From assembly GCA_963971285.1 (NCBI GenBank), contig OZ020248.1, positions 19,551,873 through 19,615,872 on the forward strand: a stretch of DNA of 64,000 bases, in the 5' to 3' direction. This document shows, piece after piece, positions 1-40,660 of the stretch. The number at the start of each line of letters is the position of its first letter. The stretch's first letter is position 1. The translations under genes and the position numbers were made by a program. Under the pieces are notes generated by a model. That model saw only the letters and a program-made list of their open reading frames with translations. It made no database searches and was not told the DNA's origin. Origin of the DNA: Astropecten irregularis. Lineage: Eukaryota > Echinodermata > Asteroidea > Paxillosida > Astropectinidae.

Positions 1-1040
1 TTGATTAAAAGTAATTTACATGCCCCTGTTGTTTACTGCAAAGAAGAGAGGAAAACCTGAAGAATCGCAAATTCAGACAGCATAAAGTAATTTATTATTT
101 CACATGAACAGATTTACACACAATATGGAAATAACAGTCAAATTTGTTTAAGCCACTGTAATAAATATACATGTAACTGCAGAGATATACATTTCACACA
201 GGCAATTTAATACTGAAAATGTACAAAGATCTCAAACATTGAAATATAAGTCTTTCAAAAACTCAGCAGTTAAACTCTTAATCTCAAACACACTATAACA
301 ATTTATCATGTTTTAAGCACATGAATATTTTAGAGATCACCTGATACAATCCACTACCCTGTACTTGTCAATTAAATGAACAAATTTAGAAATATCAGGA
401 ATGTTGCTTATCTAAACTTTATTTACAGTTTAAAACAATGGGAGACTTTGGAGAACCGGCCTGAAAGCGCAAAACAACGCACGCATGCTCACAATTGCAC
501 TAGCAATTGGTTTGCGCGTGCGCTGTTGACTCCAGACTAGTTCTCAAAGGTCTCCCATTAGGGAAATGTCGGCCTGCCTTCAGAGGTAATTAAGCACCAG
601 TTTAAACAAAATTATAATTTATGTGTAAACTTACATTTCATGCGACTGTTTCAACTACTTGCACTCATGCAAGATTTCACAAAGGTATTTGAAAACAAAA
701 TTTGTTCAATTGTTATTTCATTAGTTATTTAAGCATGTTGGTTTTGAATTTAAATAATACTCTTCAAATTCTATTTTTTTTACTGTCGGCATTTTACAAA
801 CAAACATTTTAAAATACAATTCATTCAATTGTTTTGTACATACATGTACATTGTCATCATTTTTTACATCAACAGCTCACACAAAAATTGTATGTGGTTT
901 AAAATTGCATCAGAAAAATCGAATGTGGTTCATAATTGCGTCATAAAATCTTGTGGTTTAAAATTCCAGGTACATGTACATGTAGCAAAAGGAAATGTTT
1001 TTCTACACAAATTTGTCAACAAGTGCTATTGTCTCAGGTT
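1..1040. other. Non-coding flank
   Basis: AT-rich sequence with no coding region I can support. It holds one short palindromic element (described separately) and scattered ACATGTACATGT words. It lies downstream of the minus-strand transposase gene and may include its 3' untranslated region. No clear poly(A) signal was picked out. Confidence 0.6.
438..558. mobile_element. MITE, GGGAGAC family, copy 1
   Basis: A 121-bp foldback element. The left end reads ATGGGAGACTTTGGAGAACC and the right end is its imperfect reverse complement. The inner part is CpG-rich (cgcacgcatgctcacaattg). The same family recurs at 44751-44884 and, truncated, near 42211. The right flank is TA and the left flank is CA, so a TA target duplication is only partly preserved here. 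It is non-autonomous with no coding capacity. Confidence 0.75.
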
Positions 1041-4000
1041 TCACTTAAAGACTGCATGCCCATGTAGATTGGGACTCCTTACAACATAAGCAGAGTTGAA
1101 GACTCCAGGAGAGCTGGGTTTTATTAGAAATAATTTCTCTTGTATATCTTGGACATGAATCACTTGGAAGTCTTCAGTTTCACGGACATACTGTAGATGT
1201 TTTCCACCTTCCATTTCAGGTGTTGGTGGGTCACATTTATTGAGAATATTCACAAAAGCATACACGTTGTTAGTATCAAGGTCCAATACAAAATACACTA
1301 TACTGGCAACCCCACCGTTTCTTGTCAGGACAACATAACATATTTTCTTCTTCATTCTTAAATACATTTGTGAGTACAACTGCATTCTGCCTACTTGTAC
1401 CCTCAATACCTTCTGTAACCGATTAACATCTCGCACAAACCAAAGCTTTTGCAATATTAGCTGAGTGTCATTGACAGGCAAACTCTGAATGGAACCTGCA
1501 ATCATGCAACCATCCGCCTTTTTCATTTTGGTCCATTGCCTACCATGTGTAGTGGTCATTGATGCTCGTAATACACTTAAAGCATTTCGGTACCGAAGAA
1601 CCTGTTTAGCGACATTGCCAGTGCCATGGACAGCATGTAGGATGAAGCTATTTGAGTCTTCAAAAGGAAAACAACTCCACGCCCAAAGTGGTCCAAAACG
1701 CTGCACACACTGACACAGATGGGCACCAATGTTGTGAACATTCAAACCACATGATCCTTCCCCATACAGAGAAGCGAACTGACAATAAAATGTATCAAGA
1801 AGAACATTTGCTCTTTCCAAATCAGTAACAGAGATTGCATCCCCTAGCAAAATATGAATGCCCTCAGCAAGTAATGCCACATGTTGAAGATACCTTTCAG
1901 GCAGAATGTCACTCATGCATGCTATGCAATAGTATAGAAGCCATGCTTGATATTCAGTTGCTTTTAAGCCCTGGAAGTGTTTTTCCAAGTCTCTTGGAAG
2001 TCGTTCCAAGAGGTCTGATGGCTTAATAGACATCAAACGCTTAGAGATAGTCTGAAGTTTGTTCCCAACAAAGTACGCTTTACCACTCTGTGTGGAGGAA
2101 AACCATTTATGCATCAATACTTTGGTTACACCAAGCAAGACACCGTGCATGTAATCTGGTAATATTCCCTGGGACAAGTCAAGTGGTGTGAGCTCAACCA
2201 AACCTGATTTTCCACGAAACCCTTTCCTCCTATTCTGCATGGTTGAATTATCCATGTTTGCTTTGATATTTTCTGGATCTCTAACTGGGTAAGCACATCT
2301 CAAAGACCGATATGGATAACAACGAGAATGGCCTCTCCCTTGCTGTACTGTCTTGCCTGGCTCCTCACAGAGAATACATGCCTCAGCACCATTATACTGT
2401 GTCATATTGAGCACTGCTGCTTTTGCTGGAAGATCAAGGGTACCACATATGACAGCAAGCTTTACAATTCCTGGATCTGGGTAATCTACTTGTACACCCT
2501 CATGGTAAAGGCGGTTCATCTCATCACTGAACGCCTTCATGTACTGATAAAAGGGTGGCTTGCCTTTTCCTTGCCACATTCCTACTAACAAAATGTTTTC
2601 TCTGGCAAATCTCCTTGCTGGTGGCAATTCATTTATAGCTAGAAATATGGGCCACAATTCAATCTTTGATGATGAATACAAGCAAAGTCCATCTGTATTA
2701 AATATTGCAGATATGTTGTTCTCCCCTGCAAGAAATGAATCTTCTGCACATAGACTTTGATAGAAGCTTGCACTTGTTATATCTGAAATTGGGCCATCTG
2801 GTGAAGATGAGGCTCGGCGCTTGGTGTTGCAAATTTGCTCCCAGTTATCTGAAATCAAAATAAAATTTCTTATTAAAATTTGCATTACAATTGAAATCGA
2901 CACTCTCTTCTCTTCATGGAAAAAAATACAAGTAATAAACTGCTGCAAACTGCTCATCAACCAAAATATTGACCTTTAATTTATAAAATCCTTGGAGTTA
3001 GGAGAGCCCGACACTTTTTAAGTGTCGATAAAAACCCTGCTAAGATCGAAACATGTCACGCCCTCCTGACTCCAATCATCTTCATGAAAACAGTAAAACA
3101 GGTTTTGCCAACAGGTTTAATGCAAGTACATTTACATGAAGGCATTAAAAGCTTGATCAATTTTGAAAAAAAAAGAAGAAAAAAAAAGAAAGAAATCTGA
3201 ATAAACCATAGGTTTTGGACACTTAAGTCTCTTTGTGAAAATGGTGATATACATGTACATGTATACATGTAATTGGTCAAATAATACAAAGCTTGAGGTG
3301 ACTGCTGTGAATTTTTTTTTACAAAAATTAGATTAACAATTTTTTTTTACTTAAACACCAAACGTCTTGATGTTTTGGACTGAAAAAAAAAATTCCAAAA
3401 TCCAAACTCCAAACAGTGTTTAAAACCATCAAACATATACGTATCCCTTCATAAATGCTGACAGCATTTAAGAAAAGACAAATCTGATACTTTATGGCCA
3501 TAAACCTGAATACAAACATGACAAATGTTCAGTGGCCATAACGATTGTTTCTGTTACCTGATGTTTTGATGAGTTGCTGAAGTTGTCTGTCAATATCAGC
3601 CAAAACAAAAGAGTGTCTTGGAATCTTGGATGATGTCTGGCTTGATTCTGGTCCCATAAATCTTAACCCATCACAGCCAGAGGTTGCACATCTAAACACA
3701 TTGTCGTCTTCAGGGAATAAGGCATTACAATGGTGACAGTAATGGTACTCTTTGAATGAGGTATCCCCACAAACTTTCCACAGAGATTCATAAGACATAT
3801 TTGACAGTGTGTCAGAGTCAGGAAACAACTTTTTCATCATAACAAGAATGTCTTTTGATGCTGCTGCAGAAAGATTATGTCTCATGAACACTGAGAGTAT
3901 TGCAAGCGCATTTTGTTCTTGATGGGAAAGTTGAGCAGTAAACAACTGTTCGTCATCAGAATCATTTACAGTAGATGACTCATAAGATTCAACACTAGAT

Positions 4001-6284
4001 GTACTACAACTGTCTGTGGAATCAGAACTGCAGCTGTCCAGTGAAAAAGCGTCATCATCACTCAGTTCTTCAGTATTGCTGACACGCTTTGAAGCAAAAT
4101 TTGAAGACCCATCACTGCTCATGTCTTCACTTGGGAAGAGGTCATTCTCTGTTGCTAATTCATTCTCTTCAAACAAGCCATCAGGAGTGGGATGAGGAAC
4201 TGGAGAATCCCAACTTTCGATTTCTGCAAGCATTTGGAAAGAAATGCAAAAACATTTTCAAGTTACAAAAAAATGTCTACCGGTACTTTTCTCAATTAAA
4301 ACCAGTCCTACTGTTGAAGCAAATAAAGGGAGCAGGGCAAAACTCTTCAAGCCACTTTTCTGTAAAAATCAGGGGCTAGGCCACAAGTTGCAAGTCCTGG
4401 AGAGTGCTATTGTTCAGCCTATTTCCCTAATAATTGCGGCCAAGATAATCTAAAAGAGGGGCCTTTTTTACATTTGTTTTTTTTGCGTCCCATTTTTTTT
4501 TGCCGACGAGCAGTTTCCAGCAGTTTATTACTTGTATCAATTTCTATTGTATTACATGTATAAATGCGACGCCAACCCCCCCCCCNNNNNNNNNNNNNNN
4601 NNNNNNNNNNNNNNNNNNNNNNNNNNNNNNNNNNNNNNNNNNNNNNNNNNNNNNNNNNNNNNNNNNNNNNNNNNNNNNNNNNNNNNNNNNNNNNNNNNNN
4701 NNNNNNNNNNNNNNNNNNNNNNNNNNNNNNNNNNNNNNNNNNNNNNNNNNNNNNNNNNNNNNNNNNNNNNNNNNNNNNNNNNNNNAAAGAGTGTATCCAG
4801 TGGAATACTTGTCAAAAATGAACTTCAATGTATTTTGAGTCCATATCCTACCAGAAATACAAAACTCAAATACCATTCCGACCTTTCGAGTTGGGCTTTA
4901 AGTGAAGATTTGAGGTTACTGACATAAACTTCCAACTTTAGTTGTGTGATGCAGTACAGCAATCCACATGGCATCGACAGACATAATGTACAGACTTCAA
5001 GTTCCCTTAAAACATGTAAAACTACAATATGCATAGTATGATTTAGCCTATTGTGTTGGACATGAAAATTGCCAGGGAAGCTAGATAAATTCTCTGATAA
5101 AATTCAAATATAAAAAAATTCCAAATGCTTCAGTCTCACAATCATCATGAATAAATTAACAATCATTCAGAAAACTAGCCACAGCAGAAATAAATAAGTG
5201 GGCTTCCAGAACAATTACCCACAAATAATTTCACCATTCCTCAAAAGAAAAAAAAAATTGTTGCCAAAAATGTCACAATTGCCATAATTATCGGAAAACA
5301 AATACCCAATAACTTCCAGAATCTGTAGTGATATTATATGTACATGTACTTCCTGTCAGTTAAAATTACCTCCTTTAAATTCTGATAATTCAATTTCGAC
5401 AGCGACAGAGTTTCTTGAGGTGGTTGATAAGGGTGACAGCTGAAGAGGTGCAGGTGAGTCGCCTTCTGTCTGCATCTCTGTAAACTCTGAAGATGTTGAC
5501 TCTTCACATGGACTGGCGATTGAGTATTTCTTCCATCTGTGCAAAGTTGATCTTGGGACATGTACATTTTGGTCGTCGGTTTGCAAATACCTTTTTGTTA
5601 CACGTTTCACTGGACCTGAAAAAGGAGGAATTTATTTCAGATATTGACACTATAATTTTTTTCTAGAAACAGACGTCAATAATTTGGCTGGAAAGTCACA
5701 ATTGTTCTTTCTGTATTTTAATTACAGTCATGACGTCAGTGGGGATAGTTTGACCATAGCCCTACATCCCAAATTCAAGACAAGAGACGGAGTACTAAGT
5801 ACTAGCCTAATTACCCCAGTACCATACATGTAGGTTTAGACTCGAGCCACACTCGGGGCAGTTCAATCGAATTACATGTAGGCCCTTAATTAAATAATAG
5901 TAATACAGAGTTGCCAGTGGCTTCGAAGTTCAAGTTAAATTTAGCATGTTATTGTAATGTGCGGGGTGAAAGTTACCACAAATACCAGAACCAGTTTTGA
6001 TAAAAATGATAGATTAATATTTTTATATTAATCTAAATTGCGTAAATACGAAGGGGTCCTGAAATACACAATCCCAAGCGGGCATACTTACTCATGTGAT
6101 GAGCCGAATGAAGGTGAACCATGACATTTCTTTTTGATGACAGCAACCGGTTACAGCGAAGGCATTTATATTTTTTACGACTGACATCGCCAACAGAAAT
6201 GGCAACAAAGCAGCTTTCTTTACTAGGCCTAACATGACTAACGTTAGGCCTACAGAAAGGACTAGAACTCTGACTTTTGACCAT
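1041..6284 (-). CDS. tnp2-like transposase gene, four exons, intact frame
   Basis: Probable transposase of the tnp2/DUF4218 type, the family found in CACTA/EnSpm elements, which cuts and rejoins element ends. My splice model is 6284-6092, 5615-5370, 4223-3558 and 2848-1041. Every junction has GT-AG and phases agree, giving 970 codons without a stop. Residues 41-62 form a C2H2 finger (C-X2-C-X12-H-X4-H). About 160-240 is acidic and Ser-rich. Cysteines at 309, 312, 325 and 330 look like a zinc ribbon. The transposase core has NTDG near 419, a CILCEEPG segment near 526-533 and LPDYMHGVLLGV at 598-609. The start at 6284 is chosen because the finger follows it; the frame is open further upstream to 6494. 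A 200-N gap sits in intron 2. It faces a BEN-domain gene across 887 bp. Two decayed relatives lie at 37.8-40.7 and 44.2 kb. Active or domesticated status is unknown. Confidence 0.8.
4586..4785. other. Assembly gap (200 N)
   Basis: A run of exactly 200 N directly after a C-homopolymer. It falls in intron 2 of the transposase gene (between 5370 and 4223), so it does not interrupt the coding model. The round length suggests a placeholder rather than a measured size. Confidence 0.99.
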
Positions 6285-7171
6285 TGTGTCCCGTCCTTTT
6301 CTCAAACCAGTACTACTAGTATAGTAGTAGGGCCTACCGGTACTTGTTAGTCTGATTAAGCTTGGAGGTAGAAAACATAGGCCTACACCGAAAGATTGAT
6401 TTTCCCCGCCGCGGGCTGCGGTCACTACGCGTAAACCATACACGTACCACAACTTGCCATCGCTAGTGCATTGAAAGCATTGAATGCAGTGCACGACAGA
6501 CGTGTCTTGTACCTAAACTAATACACAGAAAAAACACGCGTTGCCGTATGTCAATAAATGGTGCCAGACTTTACTTGGCTTTCACATGCAAACTAAATTG
6601 CGATTGGTTAAAAGCGATAAAATATCCAAGTAGCAGCCAATGAGCGACGCTCTCTTTTATCCGGCGCTTCGCTTAATTTCGTTTTAAGTACGTGACATTT
6701 TACGTTGTTGTTGTTGTTTTTTTTATTTATAGGGATTGTAAATTTTAGTGTCGTTACCTGATATTTTTAAAATCAAGGTTTTTTTATCACAACGTCAGTA
6801 TGTACAAGACTACAAGTATCACCGCAAGGAGTACGTGTTTCTACCGTGATCACGTGATCAACGAAATGCCGCCTCCGAATCACATGGCTGCGGCTTTGAA
6901 TGACAGCTTTCTGTGGTGTACTGCTGCGCGCTTAATATTATTTTAGGTCGATCCATAGCCATAAGCCAAGTGATTTTGAATCGGCTTTACACGTAATGTC
7001 GTACGATTAAATACGCTGTCCTGATTGGTTTAAAGTCTGGCCTAAATGTTCCGCCGCCAACTTAACGATCTTTCCGCGGTTTTATTTTTTGTCGAGTCGC
7101 GCTGCATAAGCTGAAGTGACACTGACAGTTTTTACTCTTACAATCACTAATTAATAACAGCAAGAATAAGG
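6285..7171. promoter_or_regulatory. Shared divergent promoter region
   Basis: This 887-bp space separates the start codons of the minus-strand transposase and the plus-strand BEN gene, so both promoters must lie in or near it. I see CCAAT boxes in both orientations (ATTGG at 6603 and 7024, CCAAT at 6637). A perfect 14-bp palindrome, TGATCACGTGATCA at 6847-6860, contains a CACGTG E-box. The part near 6400-6490 is CpG-rich. No convincing TATA box was chosen. Regulatory function is inferred from position only. Confidence 0.5.
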
Positions 7172-10100
7172 ATGTACGTCCTTATTGAATGGGAAGGCGA
7201 AGGCCTTGTTAACGTGTATCACATGTCGAAAATTCTGAAGCCCCGTAAAGAGTACAAAGCGTACCATGTCGGGGAGAAGATTTCTGCTAAATTTGCCGGA
7301 AAGATGTATGATGCGTCAATCCTTCAAATCTCTGGTAAGTCACTAAGTGGACCGATAACGTTAACATGGATTTAGCCTAACGTAAGGCCTATGAATATCA
7401 TAATCAGGCATGCAACCTTTCCTCGGATCAGCTGATTTACTCACTTTTTTCGCTTCACTCATTCTTATGCCATTGAAAAGTGAAAAACACTGTAACTTAG
7501 GCCTACAAATGCGTGGTAAAGATTGGAATTTCCTCTTATTTAAAAGTCCAAGTTTCATGCCTGGAATATGAATGATCCCAGCCACAATCATGACATTAAT
7601 TTATTTTAACTAGCCTAGGCCCCTAACTTAACGTTAGTAACTTTCCTACAAAAGGCCAAGGTTGCTTCAAAATAATATTAACAGTGACCATGGTGACAGT
7701 GCAATGTAATATTAATAAATGACATGTAGCCTAGGCCCTACGTAGTACGTAGGCCTATCCTAGTTCCTACTAGGTTACTAGGCCTATTTACTAACGTTTG
7801 GCCTAGCATGGTTGAGGCCTAACGTTAGGCCTAAGTCTAAGTAGGCCTTAGCCTAGGCCCTAAGAGGCCTAACGTTTAACTTTAAGACTAACGTAACAGT
7901 TAGGTCTAAGCAAGAAAAAAAATAGATGTTTGAGGTCCTGTCTTGTTATCATGGCTGAGCTGACTGTGATTCTTGAATATTTAAATTTTCAGAAAACCGC
8001 AAAGAACTGGAAGAATGCGCAAAGGGTCGAAAATCCTCTGGACATGCCGGAAAGACAGCAGTGCCAAAAGCTGCAGCTGACTGTAGGCCTAGGCCTACAC
8101 AAGGTAACGTTAGGCCTAGCCTAAAAATGTTCACCTTAAAGCTAAAAAAATATTATTTCTTTCCCTGTCGTTTGTTAATGCTAGGGCCTATTTTATTTGG
8201 TAGGAATTGTTGCTGACACATTTCACTTGTGACATTGAGGGTGGGTTTCATTTTAAAACAACATAGGTCGGCCCTAAGGCCTAGCCTAGGCCCTAATAAT
8301 AGAAGCATTTCACATAAGTTAGGCTAGGTAAAATTCAGTAAAATTAATTATTATTAGAGTAAACAATTCAGCATGTTTCTTTTGGATCCTTTGGGATGCA
8401 TTTGATTTTTGTTAATCTCCATTTAAGTAGGCCTAACGTTACTGCCTAAAGTGCAACTGTCATTACAGTAAATATCAAGTTCAAGCAAGGTAGGTGTTGT
8501 TTTTCAAATTGCCAAAAACACAGGTTTAGTGAGTGAGAAATGTACTCACTTGGGTACAGGAGTCGATCATCTCAAAGGCAAAAAAAGCTATCGTTATCCT
8601 CAAGTCAGGCAATACCGCAAGGTGTTATTGTTAATTTTGTTTCAGAAAATTTGTAAGGTTTTAAAAAACTTTAAAATGAATAGTCTGTATGATCATTTTT
8701 GTTATTTATTTTTGAAGCTGACAAAGCAATGGAGCAACAAACTGACACAGACGAAATAGCAGAGCTTCAGAGACAGCGTCTAGACAAATTCCATCGGAAT
8801 ATAACCTCATCACCAATCGGAAATGAGAGTAAGTATAAAATAAAAAATACATGGCAAGGTGTTAATTTTGTTTCTGAAAATGTATAAGTAAGGATTTAGA
8901 AAACATCAAAATTAATATTCTATGTGATTTTTTGTTATTAATTTTTGAAGCTGACAAAGCAAAGGAGCAACAAAGTGACGCAGACGAAATAGTAGAGCTT
9001 CAGAGACAGCGTCTAGACCAATTCCATCGGAAAATATCACCACCAATCAGATCACCACCAATCAGATCACCACCAATCAGATCACCACCAATCAGAAATC
9101 ATAGTAGGTAGAAACTAGAAAATACTTCATCATCTTTGTAGAATCTCATAGTGCCTTTTTAAAAAATTAAAGTAGTATTTTCATAGTGACTTTTTTTAAA
9201 GCAGTATTTTCATAGTGGCTTTTTTAAAGCAGTATGGCATTGCCATTGTTTTCGACACTTGAATCTCATTTCACAAAAACATGTAATTCAAGCATAACAT
9301 GTTGCATATTTCAGTGAAAAAAACCAAGGTAAATAAGCAAGGTAGGTGTTGTTTGTCAAGTTGCCAAAACACAGGTTTAGTGAGTTTAGAAATGTACTCA
9401 ACTTGGGTTTGGAGTCGAAATCTCAAGGGCAAAAAAGTTATTGTTATCCTGAAGTCAGGCAATACCCCAAGGTATGTTAATTTTGTTTCGGAAAATTTGT
9501 AAGGTTTTAGAAAACATAAAAATTAATATTCTATATGATTTTTTGTTATTTATTTTTGAAGCTGACAAAGCAATGGAGCAACAAACTGACACAGACGAAA
9601 TAGTAGAGCTTCAGAGACAGCGTCTAGACAAATTCAATCGGAATATAACCTCATCACCAATTGGAAATCAGAGTAAGTAGAAAATAAAAATACATGGCAA
9701 GGTGTTAATTTTGTTTCTGAAAATTTATAAGTAAGGATGTAGAAAACATCGAAATTAATATTCTATATGATTTTGTGTTGTTCATTTTTGAAGCTGACAA
9801 AGCAATGGAGCAACAAACTGACGCAGATGAAATAGTAGAGCTTCAGAGACAGCGTCTAGACCAATTCCATCGGAAAATATCACCACCAATCAGAAATCAT
9901 AGTAGGTAGAAACTAAAAAATACTTCATCATCTTTGTAGAATTTCATAGTGCCTTTTTTAAAAATTAAAGCAGTGTTTTCATAGTGACTTTTTTTAAAGC
10001 AGTATTTTCATAGTGGCTTTTTTAAAGCAGCTGTATGGCATTGCCATTGTTTTTGACACTAATGAATCTCATTTCACAAAAACATGTAATCGAAGTATTA

Positions 10101-12453
10101 CATGTTGCCTATTTCAGAGAAAAAAAAATAAAATAAGGCAATTTTAAAAAGAGTTCATAATTCAAATTGAGAACATGGTATATTAGTGCACAGACATATG
10201 GGTGTTTATTGTTTAACTTGCTTTGGATCCCTGGACAGTATATTAACATTTTGTTAAAATGATGTCGAGTGCTTTGCTGTTTTTTGTCCTACATGTAGTA
10301 AAATCAATTTCCTTTGCACCGGCTCTGTCGTCCCCATTTCTTAAAATAAAAAATTGATTGCAGTAGTTTGTTTTCACCTTTAATACATACATCATTGTAA
10401 ACGTCTGTGTTTTTGTTTGTTTCTCAGGCACCTTTGAATCATTGCTTCCCCCAAAAAAGAGGACAATCGATCGAGTTTATGAAGGTAAGATTGTTCATAA
10501 ATTGTGTAATACATCTTTGGTGTATTTGCAACCAATAAGGGAAAATGAATGTTGCAGTTTGATTTACAATTTCATATCTATAATTTTGTTACCACTTTTT
10601 CATGTTGTTTCACTAACCCCAAACTCCCTTTACCTGTACATGGTAAGTAGCTGCATCTTCTTCAATTTCATTCAACACCAATTTCCTTTAGATAAAATTT
10701 GAATTCATTACCATGGCAAGCTATTATTTGGGCTCTGAACTCTGAAAGCCTCCTAGCCGACTCACCCCCGGCTGACTCACCCCCTGACCGACTCGTCCCT
10801 GGCCAACTCGCCCCCTAATTTATTCAGAGAACTGATGGGATGCAAAATGTAAAGAAAATTACACAAATGCATCATACTTAAATACCTAAATGCTTCTGAC
10901 CTTTTTGTAGGGCCTACTTATGTGTTAATGTCAAAAATTGTATAGTTAAGTAAAAAAAAAAAATGCACAAAGTCCACACACAAACTCCTGGCTCGATTGC
11001 AGTTCAAGCAAATTAATATGTCCTTCGCAGAAGCAAAAAATATAAAAACTAAAAAAACGCAACTTAAAAACAAGAAAAAAGAGTCAGCAACAACACTTAA
11101 AATAAACCATAGAACAAAACATACTGTCATTATGAAAAAAAAAGTCTACCAAAGATGTCAACAATAAGTCAATAATACTTAAAGTAAAAGCAAGATATTT
11201 TCAAACGAAACGATTACAAAATGAGTAAAGAAAAAACATCATGCAATAAAAAAAAATAGTTAAAATTATTTCAAAAAGTCACAAAAACTAAAAAAACATC
11301 GTCATAATGACAAAAACACAAAAGTCGGTCAGGGGGCGAGTTGGGGAGGAGGCGAGTTGGGGAGGAGGCGAGTTGGGGAGGGGGCGAGTCGGTAAGAGGC
11401 GAGTCGGCTAGGGGGTGAGTTGACCTATTACCCCATGTCAGCTTTAATAACCAATCATTGCATTTTAATAAGTTCTGTTTGCATGTATTTTTCAACAGAC
11501 ACTGAGATCACAAGAACATATCAAATGGACAAAGAAGAAAGGTAGGACCTTATAATTTGAGTCATTCTAGTAAGTGTGACTTTGTGTTATGCGTGTAGAT
11601 GCAGGTTTTTTTTTTAACTTTTGCAGTTTAAAGTGATGAGATAAAATGTACATGTAAGTAATGTGAATCTTACACTTCACAACATTGTTTTTCTTTCTGC
11701 ACGTTAAAAACTAGCAATGCCCTATAATTTGAAACAGTTCTGGCAGTTTCTTTGTACTGAGAAAATATTTGCCATATTTAGTAAATCAAAATGCACCTAA
11801 CTCCTCAAATTAAAGACTGAAGCCTTCTGAATGTAGTATTAGGATTTTATTTTAGGAATTAATTTTTGATGTCGAGCAATTTTAGCAATGTGTAAAATTT
11901 GTCAATAGGGCCTCATTAGGAATATCATATTCATTAGGAATATCTGTGTGACACAGTTTTGAGTTTTTATATTATTGATTCCTTGTGTACTAGTTTTGCC
12001 ACCAAAGAGGAGCTTAAAGAGTGCAGGGAAGAAATCAAGCGACTTAAGAAGAAACTTCTGACTCTAACGAAAAGAGTTGATGACATCGAATACAAGAAAG
12101 TGGAATCTCCAATAGATGAAGAGGACAGTCCTGAAGAAGTGGTACCGGGCAAAACCATGGCATTTCTGAAAAAAAAGGTTTCACACCTAGGAGCGAACAG
12201 CTTGTATGAATGTGTAAAAGTACTCGCTAAAGAGATCTTTACTCCCCAGGAGCTAATGCAAAGCTCCATATCTGGTAAACGGAGTGTCAAGTCAGACAAC
12301 AACAACATAAGACCTCCATTAGACCCGACAGCATTTGCAGCATTTGAAACAATAATGAGGGAGAAAGATCCCAACATATCTCACCGATGGGTTGTGGAGA
12401 AGTTACAGTCAGTTCAGAAGGTTTTGCGAAGAAAGAATCTGTGTAACTATTAA
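7172..12453 (+). CDS. BEN-domain protein gene, nine exons, intact frame
   Basis: Encodes a likely nuclear DNA- or chromatin-binding protein. Exons by splice model: 7172-7334, 7993-8103, 8718-8828, 8951-9103, 9562-9672, 9794-9901, 10428-10484, 11499-11541 and 11994-12453. All phases agree, giving 438 residues and a stop. Residues 1-54 resemble a small beta-rich module (VLIEWEGEG, then VGEKISAKFAGKMYDASIL). Exons 3-6 are two copies of a pair of phase 1-1 exons encoding ADKAMEQQTDTDEI-type helical segments. About 291-320 is a charged coiled coil. About 340-430 is the BEN domain, including LAKEIFTPQELMQSS and RPPLDPTAFAAF. BEN domains are known in chromatin factors and some DNA-virus proteins. 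It is head to head with the tnp2-like transposase, suggesting co-regulation or one mobile unit. Exon 1 start is the first ATG after the promoter region. Confidence 0.8.
7600..8320. repeat. AGGCCTA / AACGTTAGGCCTA-rich repeat
   Basis: Irregular clusters of short self-complementary words (TAGGCCTA, CCTAGGCC, AACGTTAGGCC) fill introns 1-2 of the BEN gene, sparing exon 2 except its end, which itself reads through AGGCCTAGGCCTAC. Similar words recur near 6230-6390 and 46700. This is low-complexity interspersed sequence, not a clean tandem array. Confidence 0.7.
8488..10125 (+). repeat. 0.85-kb tandem duplication carrying two exons
   Basis: The segment beginning at 8488 (ggtaggtgttgtttttcaaa) repeats from 9339, including flanking intron and both exons (8718-8828/8951-9103 versus 9562-9672/9794-9901). 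Each exon is a multiple of three (111, 153, 111, 108) and starts and ends in phase 1, so copies can be included or skipped without a frameshift. The first B exon contains four copies of a 15-bp unit (atcaccaccaatcag); the second has one, which accounts exactly for the 45-bp difference. Confidence 0.85.
10745..11432. mobile_element. Inverted-repeat element with CTCGCCCCC ends
   Basis: Lies in the intron between BEN exons 7 and 8. The left end has several units like CCGACTCACCCCC and CCAACTCGCCCCC (10755-10815). The right end has the reverse complement, GGGGGCGAGTTGGGG, repeated (11325-11425). The interior is AT-rich with no coding sequence. This looks like a foldback element with iterated subterminal motifs. 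I could not define a target-site duplication, so exact ends are approximate. Confidence 0.55.
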
Positions 12454-13094
12454 GGTGGGAAAAAAACTTCATCTGCTTGGTTGAACCGTTGTCTCACCTT
12501 TTAAACTTTTTGACTCAAAATTATGTAATCCTTTATAAAAAAGTTTTTCAGCAAACTGCATCTACATGCATAGCTGCCCCTATTTACAGAATTTACTAAA
12601 GAAATTATCTGCCATAAGAGACAGAAAGTCTCCCCATAATATCAGAAATACATGTATTTTGATTGTTTAAAACCCAGTACTTAAAGGGTGAGAACTTTCG
12701 GAAAATACTGGGGGCCTGCACTTTATGTGCATTTAGGTACATGCATGATCAAAAATATTGACAAGAAGAACTAATTAGAACATTAGGCTTGTGTGGAAGG
12801 TCACTGGCAGCATTTGATACTCACTTATGCAAATTCACCAAGCGCGATGTACATGTAAATATGATGAATAGCAAGTATTAAAATCAAAAAGATTAAGGGC
12901 ATTTTTACAGTTACAGTTAAGTTTTATAGAGTTAAAAAGCAAGTGCGCGTAAAGATTTCATAGATGAAAATCCTTGTGTGCGAGTATGTGTTGTGTTGGA
13001 GTATGGGAATAAAAGTTAGTTACAGAATTCCTCATGTGAATGTATTCCATTTCCTTCATTAAAAATTGAATAATGGTGATTTATTTTCTCAAGA

Positions 13095-13640
13095 TGAGCG
13101 AGGTTGTTTATGAACAGTTACAGGTCACTAATGGAACAATTGTTCAAGAATATTCAGGATCTTTCAGGAATTGAGATTCATGAATTTGGTAAATTTCATG
13201 AACAAAATATCCTGAATTTTCATGATCTTTCAGGAATTGAGATTCATGAATTAAGTTCGTAAATTTCATGAATAAAATGTTCAAGAATATTCATGAACTG
13301 TTTATGAACAGTATAACTCAGACATTGCAAGTAATGTTCATGATATTTTCATGAACTTTTAGAAATGTTCACAGACAGATCAAGAACAATCAGTTCATGA
13401 AGTATTCATCAAATGTTGTTCATGAATACTGGATTGCCATTCATGAACATTCATGAAGAGTTCTTCACATGATTAATTCGTGAAAATTCATCAAGCATAA
13501 TTGTCTCATTTGTTGTTCAAGGATTTTCAAGAACTATTCATGAACAATATTATGAATATTCATGTCCAGTTCATGAACTGTAGTCAGTGAACAATCTTGA
13601 ACCATTCATGGATATTCATGAATAATCCATGATCATCTCG
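13095..13640. repeat. TTCATGAA/ATTCATGAAC palindrome-rich block
   Basis: Over about 550 bp the words TTCATGAA, ATTCATGAAC, GTTCATGAAT and their mutated forms recur in both orientations at irregular spacing. The pattern resembles subterminal repeats of DNA transposons or a decayed palindromic satellite. No terminal motif or target duplication was found, so its nature is open. Confidence 0.6.
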
Positions 13641-13647
13641 CCTGGGT

Positions 13648-14300
13648 ATGAACGCCGGTATAAAAATGAGAAATTGCACATGTTTACAACTCCTTTACAT
13701 GTGAACATACATGTTCTTTTCTCCGTAAAGCCTTAAAGATTTCTAAAGGCAGGTTGTCATCATTTTATCAAATACCGGTACAAAATATAAAAGATATGTA
13801 CACATTATAATACATGTGGATGGCAAGAGCTTAAACTGTTAACCGATAGAGTAAAATGAACATGTACCCTGAACAATTCCATTTTTCTGACTCCATGTCC
13901 TGATCATATGAACGCCGGTATAAAAATGAGAAATTACACATGTTTACAACTCCTTTACATGTGAACATACATGTACATGTTCTTTTCTCTGCTTGCCATC
14001 CACAGAGCCTTAAAGATTTCTAGAGGCAGGTTGTCATCTTTTTTTCAAATACCACTACAAAATCAAAGATAGCCAATAAAGTAAAATGAACCCTGAACAA
14101 TTTCATATGACCATATATGAACAATTAAATATAAAAACTGAGGAATTAAACATGTTTAGAACTCCTTCAAATGTTAACATGTTCATTTCTCTGCTTGCCA
14201 TCCATAGAGCCTTAAAGCTTGGTACAAAATATTACATGATAGTTGTACAGATTATACTACATGTGGTTGTTTAAATAACAGTACAAAATGCAAGTGTACA
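13648..14300. repeat. Degenerate direct repeats, about 260 bp
   Basis: The sequence atgaacgccggtataaaaat starting at 13648 recurs at 13908, followed in both by the same order of words (cacatgtttacaactccttt, ccttaaagatttct, ggttgtcatc). A third, more diverged and shortened unit follows from about 14088. It is non-coding. Confidence 0.75.
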
Positions 14301-37812: not shown

Positions 37813-40660
37813 TCAACATCCAGCAAAGACTGGAAAAAGGTTGTCTCTTACTTTGTAAGGAGTTGGCAGCTGGTGGGGTGGTGCTGGCAGTACAGTTATT
37901 CTTTCTGAATCATCGTCCATAGAAGCGTTTGATTTTAAAATCTGTGTCGTTACTTTTGTACCTAGGCAGCATTTGAGAGACCCTTTCAACCACAACTTAA
38001 GAAGGCGTCTCATGACTCCAAGGCACACCAAATGCATGTAGTCCAATGGAAATTGAGAGACCATAGGGTCATTCCGTGTCAATTCAACGCACTTTGGAAC
38101 CTGACCGACTCGGATTTCGATGAAATTTGGTATGCTTATTCGCCTCCATGAGAAACCCCCAAAACCGAAATTTTATGTAATTTGGTCCATTACTTTTTGA
38201 GATACGGGTCAACAAACTTTTGACTAATTAGCACAATCTGTCACATTCAAACAGCCATATCTCCAGAAGTAAAGAACCTACGGAAATAAATTTTACATCA
38301 TTCTAAAGCTCTTATAATGGCCTTCATTTTGTAAAATAAAACCAAAATTTTTTAATGTACAACAAAAAATTACGCTAAAATTTGACCTTTGACCTCTGAC
38401 CTCGATTAAAAAAAATGCGTATTTTTCAAAATGCGTAATTTTTTTATTAATTTAAGCTTGACATGTAAGTAACATCTCCAGAAAAATTTGGAGTGGGCGC
38501 TCATATACTTTTGGAGTTATGATAATTTAAACATCGGATTTCGTGGATAAAAGCTGTGAATATGCATTAACATGTGCACTGTACATTTAGTTATGTGCAT
38601 GTAATCCATGTATAGTAATGCATGTGCAAAAATATGAAGTATTTTGGCCTTTCTAGCCATTTTCAAGTAAGCATAACTACAAAACTGTACAAAAGCCCAT
38701 CCTTAATCTTTTACATGTTGCAGCATTTTAAACACTAGGCCCTATATCTTCCGGGAAGGGGGAGGGGTTTAATGCACAGGATCCCAGATTTGGGGATCAA
38801 GGTCCTATGCAGGGTACGCTAAAATGGGATCTGGATCCGCTGGATTCGTGATCTTGTGCATTAAACAAACAGGGCCTAACCTTGTCATCTCCATTCCATC
38901 AGAGTTTTTGTTGCAAATTCATTTCCTTTGCAGGCATATTCTATGTGTTTAGTCTCTGTAATACTAAAGTTTCCACAATTGTTACTATTCTGAGAGTGCA
39001 TCACGTAATGTGTAATCGTGTATTTAAGCAAACTAGCGATTGTTCCTTCAAGCTACATATGTGTAACAATGGTAAAAACTGTAAGCTATGAATTCCTTCA
39101 GGTTACACAGATACTCTCAGGAATAGTAATAATTGTGGAAACTGTTACAGAGACCAGATATGTTTACTTGATGTCTGCAAAAGAAATAAAATTTGCGACA
39201 ACAAAAATTCTGATGGAATGGATTTGACTAGGTTAGTTAACATGCCTGGCTGACAGTTCCAGTACCCCCCCCCCCCCCCCGAAGATATAGGGCCCAGAGC
39301 AACATGTAAAAGATTAAGGATGGGCCTTTGTACAGTTTTGTAGTTATCCATAAGGGCTAGAAAGGCCAAAATACCTCATATTTGTGCACATGCATTACTA
39401 TACATGGATTACATGCACATAAGTGTATGTACAGTGCACATGTTAATGCATGTTTACAGGTTTTATCCTTGAAATCCGATGTTTAAATTATCATAACTCC
39501 AAAAGTATATGAGCGCCCACTCCAAATTTTTTTGGAGATGTTACTTACATGTCAAGCTAAAATAAAAAAAAAAAATTACGCATTTTGGAAAATAAACTCA
39601 TTTTTTTTAATCGAGGTCAAAGGTCAAATTTTAACGTAACGTTTTTGTCGTACATGAACAAAATTTTGGTTTTATTTAACAAAATGAAGGCCATTATAAG
39701 AGCTTTAGAATGATGTAAAATTTATTTCTGTAGGTTCTTTACTTCTGGAGATATGGCTGTTTGAATGTGACAGATTGTGCTAATTAGTCAAAAGTTCGTT
39801 GACCCGTATCTCAAAAATTAATGGACCAAATTACATAAAATTTCGGTTCTGGGGGTTTCTCATGGAGGCCAATAATCATACCAAATTTCATTGAAATCTG
39901 AGTCGGTCAGGTTCCAAAGCGCGTTGAATTGACATGGAATGACCCCATACCGACTTCCATCTTTCTTAATGGTTTTGGTCCTATATGGTGATCCTCATCT
40001 ATCCTGCCATGGAATGACTCATCTGTGAGACGGGGAGCATCAGTTTCAGGAAATAGCATTTTCTTTTCATATTTTCCTGTTTGGATGCATTTCTCACAGC
40101 CTGAATAACCCGAGTGTCCTAAATAAAAACATTATTCACTTATGTGGAAGAATGTTTTTCAACTGTTCCTCCAATGGCACTGTAATAAAGTGGTCATCAT
40201 GACTAATTTGTATACCACAGTTGCTACAAATGGTGGCATGGCCGCCTATGCCATTGTAGTGAAAACAATATTCACAAAAGAAATGCTCAAGTTGGATGTT
40301 TGTTTTTAGTCCAATGAAGAATTTGTCAAAGTTATGTGAAGTGAACACTTGAGATACAGATGCTGGTAGCAACAAGCTTATTTTAGTGTTAAAAGTTCAC
40401 CAATTGCTTTCTTTGTCAAATTATGTCAAAGAGCAAATGTCATTATCAGCAACATGGCACTTGCCAGTGTCAGCAATGAACCTGTATACAGAGTCTGATC
40501 CTCGTCCCTCTCAAGCTCTTCTAGATTTTCAGTGATGAGTCTGTCTCAGACTCAGAGACACTGACTGCAGCTGTGTCATCAGAATTAGAGGCAACTTCAT
40601 CATCTGTCAGTGTCATATCATTTGAATCACTATCATCAACCAAATTGCCATGACAAATTA
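37813..40660 (-). pseudogene. Second tnp2-like transposase, split by a foldback element
   Basis: Same gene layout as the intact copy. About 40660-40500 is an acidic segment (TDDEVASNSDDTAAVSVSES) with a stop. 40375-40136 encodes the zinc ribbon (FFCEYCFHYNGIGGHATICS then NCGIQI) and FITVPLEEQLKNIL. 40118-39946 encodes GYSGCEKCIQTGKYEKKMLF and PETDAPRLTDESF. The core resumes at 38061 with VSQFPLDYMHLVCLGVMRRL. Between them sits a 1,880-bp element at 39945-38066; without it and one copy of its TATG duplication the frame is continuous (VGM then VSQF). The zinc-exon donor could not be joined in phase to the next exon, so the copy was probably decaying before the insertion. Confidence 0.8.
38066..39945. 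mobile_element. 1.88-kb foldback element, 4-bp target duplication
   Basis: Arms of about 660-690 bp (38066-38757 and 39284-39945) are near-perfect inverted repeats starting GGGTCATTCCRTGTCAATTC. It is flanked by CATA on both sides (38062-38065 and 39946-39949). The centre holds a poly-C run and a nested inverted repeat (about 38952-39000 and 39103-39155; gtttccacaattgttactat and its complement). There is no coding capacity. It inserted at a codon boundary in the second tnp2 copy. Confidence 0.9.

Follow-up and report, generated by a model that had tools for sequence, protein, structure and literature searches.

The closest described systems to the DNA transposon reported here are the CACTA-type elements of animals and plants. 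The transposon lies at the start of a 64,000-nucleotide stretch of the asteroid Astropecten irregularis (assembly GCA_963971285.1, contig OZ020248.1, positions 19,551,873 to 19,615,872; the whole stretch is called the window below), and it carries two divergent genes, one for a tnp2-type (Transposase_21) transposase and the other for a BEN-domain protein. With the animal TRC elements (SmTRC1 of Schistosoma mansoni and those of Aedes and Tribolium) it has in common the Transposase_21 domain, terminal inverted repeats (TIRs) starting with CCC and a 2-bp target duplication, which was seen in 7 of 14 copies in the TRC report itself (PMC1636069; this and the other papers below are cited from excerpts). 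TRC elements differ in that the excerpted text describes one transposase open reading frame (ORF) and no BEN gene and leaves palindromic subterminal arrays unmentioned (PMC1636069). Plant CACTA elements (maize Spm/En with TnpA and TnpD, Tam1 with Tnp1 and Tnp2, soybean Tgmt) likewise have a tnp2-type transposase and family-specific subterminal repeats; they also encode a second DNA-binding product that is non-homologous between families, a place for which BEN is here the candidate, its binding being presumed (PMC2613891). They differ in their CACTA termini and, in the soybean element, a 3-bp duplication (PMC2613891), against CCC and 2 bp here, and both Spm/En products are spliced from one transcription unit (PMC1636069), whereas the present element has two divergent genes.

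Host BEN proteins are chromatin factors that are not carried between TIRs; like them, the BEN protein of the window has its domain at the C-terminus, after a long helix. This layout presumably resembles that of Insv, BEND5 and BEND6, which we take to combine a coiled coil with a C-terminal BEN domain. A comparable two-gene logic is found in PIF/Harbinger elements, where a transposase is accompanied by a DNA-binding accessory protein, but these have another transposase family, a 3-bp target duplication and a Myb-like protein instead of BEN. In the unrelated bacterial Tn3 family, a BEN-like domain is part of the transposase TnpA (PMC9579193), while here BEN is a separate protein. In the literature searched (subscription papers and Repbase were outside its scope), no joint mention of "BEN domain" and EnSpm was found, "BEN domain" and CACTA co-occurred only via a reference list, and no prior description of a tnp2/BEN two-gene element was found, the Tn3 paper being the nearest. 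It is the BEN gene and the palindrome arrays that set the element apart from the TRC elements.

A two-gene transposon in the window

An earlier reading of the window, made from sequence only, had pointed to an intact head-to-head gene pair at positions 1041-12453. The true unit is bigger: a DNA transposon of 14,182 bp (C11:19551337-19565518; window -535 to 13646), with both genes wholly inside it. Its left 535-536 bp, comprising the left TIR and the left palindrome array, extend beyond the window, and locus L035 supplied their sequence; the features inside the window are collected in Table 1. The outermost 14 bases, CCCAGGCGAGATGA, are the same at both ends, with a TA flank on each side, and the only two occurrences of this 14-mer in the 475.7-Mb genome are those at the ends of the element; its reversed control does not occur at all. 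A genome search with the left 536 bp, in which very common words are passed over, returned a single match, the element itself. A tandem paralogue of the insertion site, still empty, was found beside the element. The window element is a complete representative of a set of two-gene animal transposons of the CACTA type (TRC) in which the genes are divergent.

Table 1. Features of the transposon and its insertion site, in window positions
Feature	Position	Strand	Basis
Element part in window	1..13646	.	TIR and TA flanks, 14-mer confined to both ends, left end single-copy
tnp2 (Transposase_21) transposase gene; exons 6284-6092, 5615-5370, 4223-3558, 2848-1041	1041..6284	-	Predicted splice model, Pfam
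Divergent intergenic stretch between start codons, 887 bp; presumed shared promoter region	6285..7171	.	Gene models
BEN gene; exons 7172-7334, 7993-8103, 8718-8828, 8951-9103, 9562-9672, 9794-9901, 10428-10484, 11499-11541, 11994-12453	7172..12453	+	Predicted splice model, Pfam, selection on 51 codons
Last BEN exon: long helix, then BEN domain	11994..12453	+	Pfam, AF2 model, Foldseek
Right subterminal array, 13 copies of TTCATGAA	13177..13622	.	Word counts
Right TIR	13633..13646	.	Reverse complement of CCCAGGCGAGATGA
Right copy of the 2-bp target duplication TA	13647..13648	.	TA flanks and empty-site comparison
Paralogous empty site	13832..13989	+	91% identical to both element flanks joined with a single TA

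The gene pair itself held up as first described. Rebuilt from their splice sites, the tnp2 gene (4 exons, 2913 nt) and the BEN gene (9 exons, 1317 nt) encode 970 and 438 amino acids, each followed by a stop codon, without internal stops and with all introns bounded by GT and AG. An assembly gap of 200 N (4586-4785) falls within tnp2 intron 2, and BEN exons 3-6 are located in a duplicated block whose copies are 87% alike. Pfam recognised Transposase_21 in the first protein (E 1.6e-9; 37.7 bits, cut-off 28.6) and BEN in residues 363-433 of the second (E 8.4e-6; 26.3 bits, cut-off 23.2). A further Pfam line for the BEN protein, UBA_HOIP, was taken as spurious, as no stretch passes alone.

For the 152 residues encoded by the last BEN exon, the AlphaFold2 (AF2) model (mean predicted local distance difference test, pLDDT, 84.8) places a long helix ahead of the BEN domain. 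In a Foldseek search with this model, rows 1 to 13 were all BEN-domain structures, the best being a NACC1-DNA complex (8yzs; probability 1.00, E 0.011); since no row reached E 0.001, the predicted fold backs the Pfam match and does not stand alone. By sequence, the same exon matched nothing in the PDB up to E 1, and no relatives were confirmed in the viral and prokaryote collections. In the transposase, D421-G422, D600 with M602-H603, E765 and C526/C529 are invariant across the 3 sequences compared, and its AF2 model has a pLDDT of 31. D421, D600 and E765 are candidates for the DDE catalytic triad.

The ratio of nonsynonymous (dN) to synonymous (dS) divergence, proposed earlier as a check, was obtained for 51 BEN codons against the nearest relative, itself part of a repeated family with two copies that are 99.2% alike. 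The values (dN 0.14, dS 0.75, dN/dS 0.19; Fisher p 4e-5) indicate purifying selection on that part of BEN, to which the comparison is confined, as the transposases (28-29% identical) are too diverged for such a test.

Two small inverted-repeat structures were seen inside the element. The first, similar to a miniature inverted-repeat transposable element, is 3' of the tnp2 gene (window 437-559; 27-nt arms, 81% complementary, starting AATGGGAGAC), and the second, a foldback-like insertion with GC-rich inverted arms of 42-47 nt (10749-11420), occupies the intron preceding the eighth BEN exon.

Other families carrying the divergent pair

Genome-wide searches gave at least 15 Transposase_21 and at least 17 BEN matches, and the same divergent pair was found between shared termini in two other families of this genome. 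The second family has 3 loci on 3 contigs (C11:2.02, C1:11.97 and C20:10.91 Mb), where tnp2 and BEN are divergent and about 7.5-7.8 kb apart in a common block of about 14.7 kb (99.4-99.8% identity) with unrelated flanks; any further stretches common to the three loci are short, diverged repeats. Its TIRs read CCCTTACAAAAAAGTCCTATAGG..., and Pfam reported Transposase_21 at 32.4 bits and, for BEN, a match of 29.9 bits covering the first half of the domain. Between the C11 and C20 copies there are 6 substitutions and a single 23-bp gap, and the transposase ORF shows 0 differences in 2289 positions among the three copies; this family has multiplied very recently. Two copies have matching target duplications (GG/GG and TT/TT). 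The third is flanked by TG/TT; the DNA on its right forms the edge of a high-copy repeat and recurs, together with the last 100 bp of the element, identically at C28. A derivative on C15 (5,247 bp; TT/TT) retains 939 bp from one end and 4,310 bp from the opposite end, and the BEN-holding stretch is gone.

The third family is represented by an element of 12,418 bp (C1:35871069-35883486; TA/TA) with a tnp2 frame of 864 codons (Transposase_21 44.5 bits, cut-off 28.6), a divergent BEN-like exon and TIRs, CCCTCACAAAAA, alike at 12 of 14 places. The scan for its ends required a CCC start, so that it offers no independent test of CCC there, and did not require a target duplication. Its BEN-like exon was reached by a purpose-built BEN profile (E 7e-10) and is 55% identical to a locus accepted by Pfam as BEN, two lines that are not independent, as that locus is among the profile seeds.

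Taken over the three families, the termini start with CCC (CCCAGGCGAGATGA, CCCTTACAAAAAAG... and CCCTCACAAAAA), and a 2-bp target duplication is present at 5 of the 6 insertions of which both ends were seen (TA, TA, GG, TT and TT; the sixth is the TG/TT copy). Together with Transposase_21, these characters agree with those of the TRC branch of CACTA in animals. At the DNA level, the window element resembles the 14.7-kb family only in short stretches, taken for shared interspersed repeats, and the window BEN protein gave no match by tblastn (E up to 0.01) at the other loci compared at that stage. In the other two families, exons of helix-like character and an N-terminal module with a similarly placed splice point at its end could be seen, by eye only.

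Frequency of the tnp2/BEN pairing

The loci from several genome searches were merged by hand into 32 BEN and 52 tnp2 loci. A divergent tnp2 was present within 15 kb of 5 of the 32 BEN loci, against a mean of 0.17 when BEN positions were moved by 30 kb to 1 Mb, and none of 5000 such shifts reached 5. Leaving out the repeat-rich region C11:19-21.7 Mb, the count was 4 of 21 against 0.11. Three of the five divergent pairs belong to one and the same family, so that the independent cases come to three families. For pairs in any orientation within the same distance the excess was modest (6; shifted mean 1.8, maximum 7) and is not relied on. Seen from the transposase side, BEN was present at 5 of the 9 tnp2 loci whose flanks were examined; flanks were covered for a minority of the 48 tnp2 matches given by one of the genome searches.

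The region C11:19.0-21.7 Mb, which includes the window, is dense in tnp2 and BEN matches, many of them fragments. Within the window, frames resembling decayed tnp2 of other families were noticed at 37813-38172 (by eye) and 40330-40512 (by genome search).

Palindrome arrays at the element ends

Every BEN-bearing family has its terminal 620 bp crowded with a perfect palindrome of its own, which is nearly absent from the interior, near the promoter too. In the window element this palindrome is TTCATGAA, with 19 copies in the ends (13 right, 6 left; the left ones are concentrated at about window -491 to -280) and a single one in the 12.9 kb between them. The palindromes of the other two families behave in the same way, with 15 against 0 copies for TCCTATAGGA and 45 against 0 for CAAGCTTG. 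Among 300 dinucleotide shuffles of the ends, TTCATGAA, TCCTATAGGA and CAAGCTTG occurred on average 0.26, 0.003 and 0.63 times, with maxima of 3, 1 and 3, a comparison that is descriptive because the palindromes were picked after the ends had been seen. When all 8-mers and 10-mers were ranked, the palindrome or a word overlapping it came out at or near the top in every family. Counting every palindromic 8-mer inside the window element gave a figure inflated by the N gap (305 with it, 112 without), which was set aside. We presume TTCATGAA, TCCTATAGGA and GCAAGCTTGC to be the family-specific BEN sites.

Palindromes and short repeats were also seen at other loci. L025 (C23:7.995 Mb; reverse complement 2467-3005) has a BEN exon followed by five TGACGTCA palindromes in 540 bp; no tnp2 match among those listed is on its contig, and it may be another BEN-bearing element. 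Repeated BEN loci (L017, L018, L019 and L024, 93-99% alike; L051 and L052, 99.2%) have, next to the BEN exon, minisatellites of about 33 bp in tandem. At a tnp2 locus on C9 (L041+L040, C9:23.385-23.395 Mb), a frame named by eye as reverse-transcriptase-like is situated between the transposase and a cluster of the GCAATTGC palindrome.

Discussion

The sequence-only reading had offered two possibilities for this locus, a two-gene mobile unit or a co-opted regulatory pair. The first is borne out, and we regard it as practically certain: a single TIR pair encloses both genes, the target duplication is in place, a paralogue of the empty site lies beside the element, and the same gene pair recurs in two other TIR-bounded families. 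As to a functional partnership between the two proteins, also suggested by that reading, the role that we consider probable for BEN, by analogy, is that of a TnpA-like end-binding partner of tnp2.

The proposal draws on the palindrome arrays at the ends and on BEN-palindrome, Tn3 TnpA and plant TNPA precedents. Binding to palindromes is frequent among known BEN domains. Insv and Elba1 bind CCAATTGG, while NACC1 selects ACATGT with the core CATG (PMC7764960), and complexes of NACC1 and BANP on palindromic DNA are described (PMC11472053). The window palindrome contains CATG and the window BEN model is nearest to NACC1, which we do not count as evidence of specificity. In Tn3 TnpA, a domain with a BEN-like fold reads the inverted repeat of the transposon sequence-specifically, so that such a fold is already known at transposon ends (PMC9579193). 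In plants, TNPA binds the subterminal repeats, TNPA and TNPD are both required, and different elements use non-homologous binding proteins (PMC2613891). By this model, the tnp2 transposase would cut and join at the CCC... termini, and the BEN protein, probably dimerised via the long helix next to its BEN domain, would bind the palindromes of both subterminal arrays. Bound BEN would then help to bring the ends together and/or control the divergent promoter of the element, as TnpA does beside TnpD in maize Spm/En, and BEN and palindrome would co-diverge family by family.

Several observations weigh against this proposal or narrow it, besides the descriptive nature of the palindrome comparison. 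The site of NACC2 is non-palindromic (PMC7764960), and the palindrome cluster of the C9 locus stands beside a tnp2 gene for which no BEN was found. More generally, no BEN was detected at 4 of the 9 tnp2 loci within the flanks covered (20 kb at C1:10.65, 20 kb at C9:23.39, 10 kb at C1:14.51 and 10 kb upstream at C1:11.52), where the best weak match to the BEN profile (E 0.03) was a 23-residue frame; these four loci rule out a universal link between BEN and tnp2. The BEN exon of the third family received no Pfam BEN report, and no complete BEN splice model was obtained for either the 14.7-kb or the third family. Finally, the window element is single-copy, and it may not itself have moved recently.

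The alternative that survives best, which we consider possible but unlikely, accepts a real two-gene transposon whose BEN protein has host chromatin as its target (to escape silencing, to insulate or to control the promoter) and does not bind the end repeats for complex assembly. It would agree with the host BEN proteins Insv, Elba1/2 and BEND3, which are repressors, insulators or chromatin factors (PMC7764960), and with the single 887-bp intergenic region common to both genes, but each BEN family has its own palindrome, concentrated at the ends and scarce even near the promoter. Moreover, TNPA of Spm/En alone does both jobs (PMC2613891; PMC1636069), so that end binding and a chromatin or promoter role are not mutually exclusive.

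Much less probable is domestication, in which the transposase/BEN pair of the window would have been co-opted and would be maintained by selection because it serves the host. Its single copy in the genome, the two open genes and the purifying selection indicated for part of BEN would all fit, yet the selection may date from a mobile phase, as the relative compared belongs to a repeated family, and the intact TIRs, target duplication and subterminal arrays are unneeded by a domesticated pair. Loss of the transposon termini, one mark of such a pair, was not observed here, and the co-opted regulatory pair of the earlier reading is accordingly disfavoured for this element. That a transposase and an unrelated BEN gene are chance neighbours in a repeat-rich region, as the clustering of 11 of the 32 BEN loci within C11:19-21.7 Mb and the modest any-orientation excess might suggest, is rejected as extremely improbable because both genes lie, divergently, between one pair of TIRs in three families, with three mobilised copies carrying both and divergent pairs far above the shifted expectation.

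In plants, CACTA elements depend on a second DNA-binding protein that evolves fast, and an animal counterpart of it was not found described in the literature searched. BEN, proposed here as the probable end-binding partner of tnp2, would be a candidate for it that comes from a DNA-binding family with solved structures, and its presumed site is repeated many times in each element family. The finding also bears on the origin and spread of BEN domains, which animals use as insulators and repressors. One may speculate further, and we do so with considerable reserve, that an animal CACTA lineage took up BEN as its end-binding factor, the BEN proteins and their private palindromes forming a co-evolving lock-and-key series. 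Traffic between host BEN chromatin factors and these elements would then mean that transposons do not just use BEN insulator and repressor proteins but also give rise to them.

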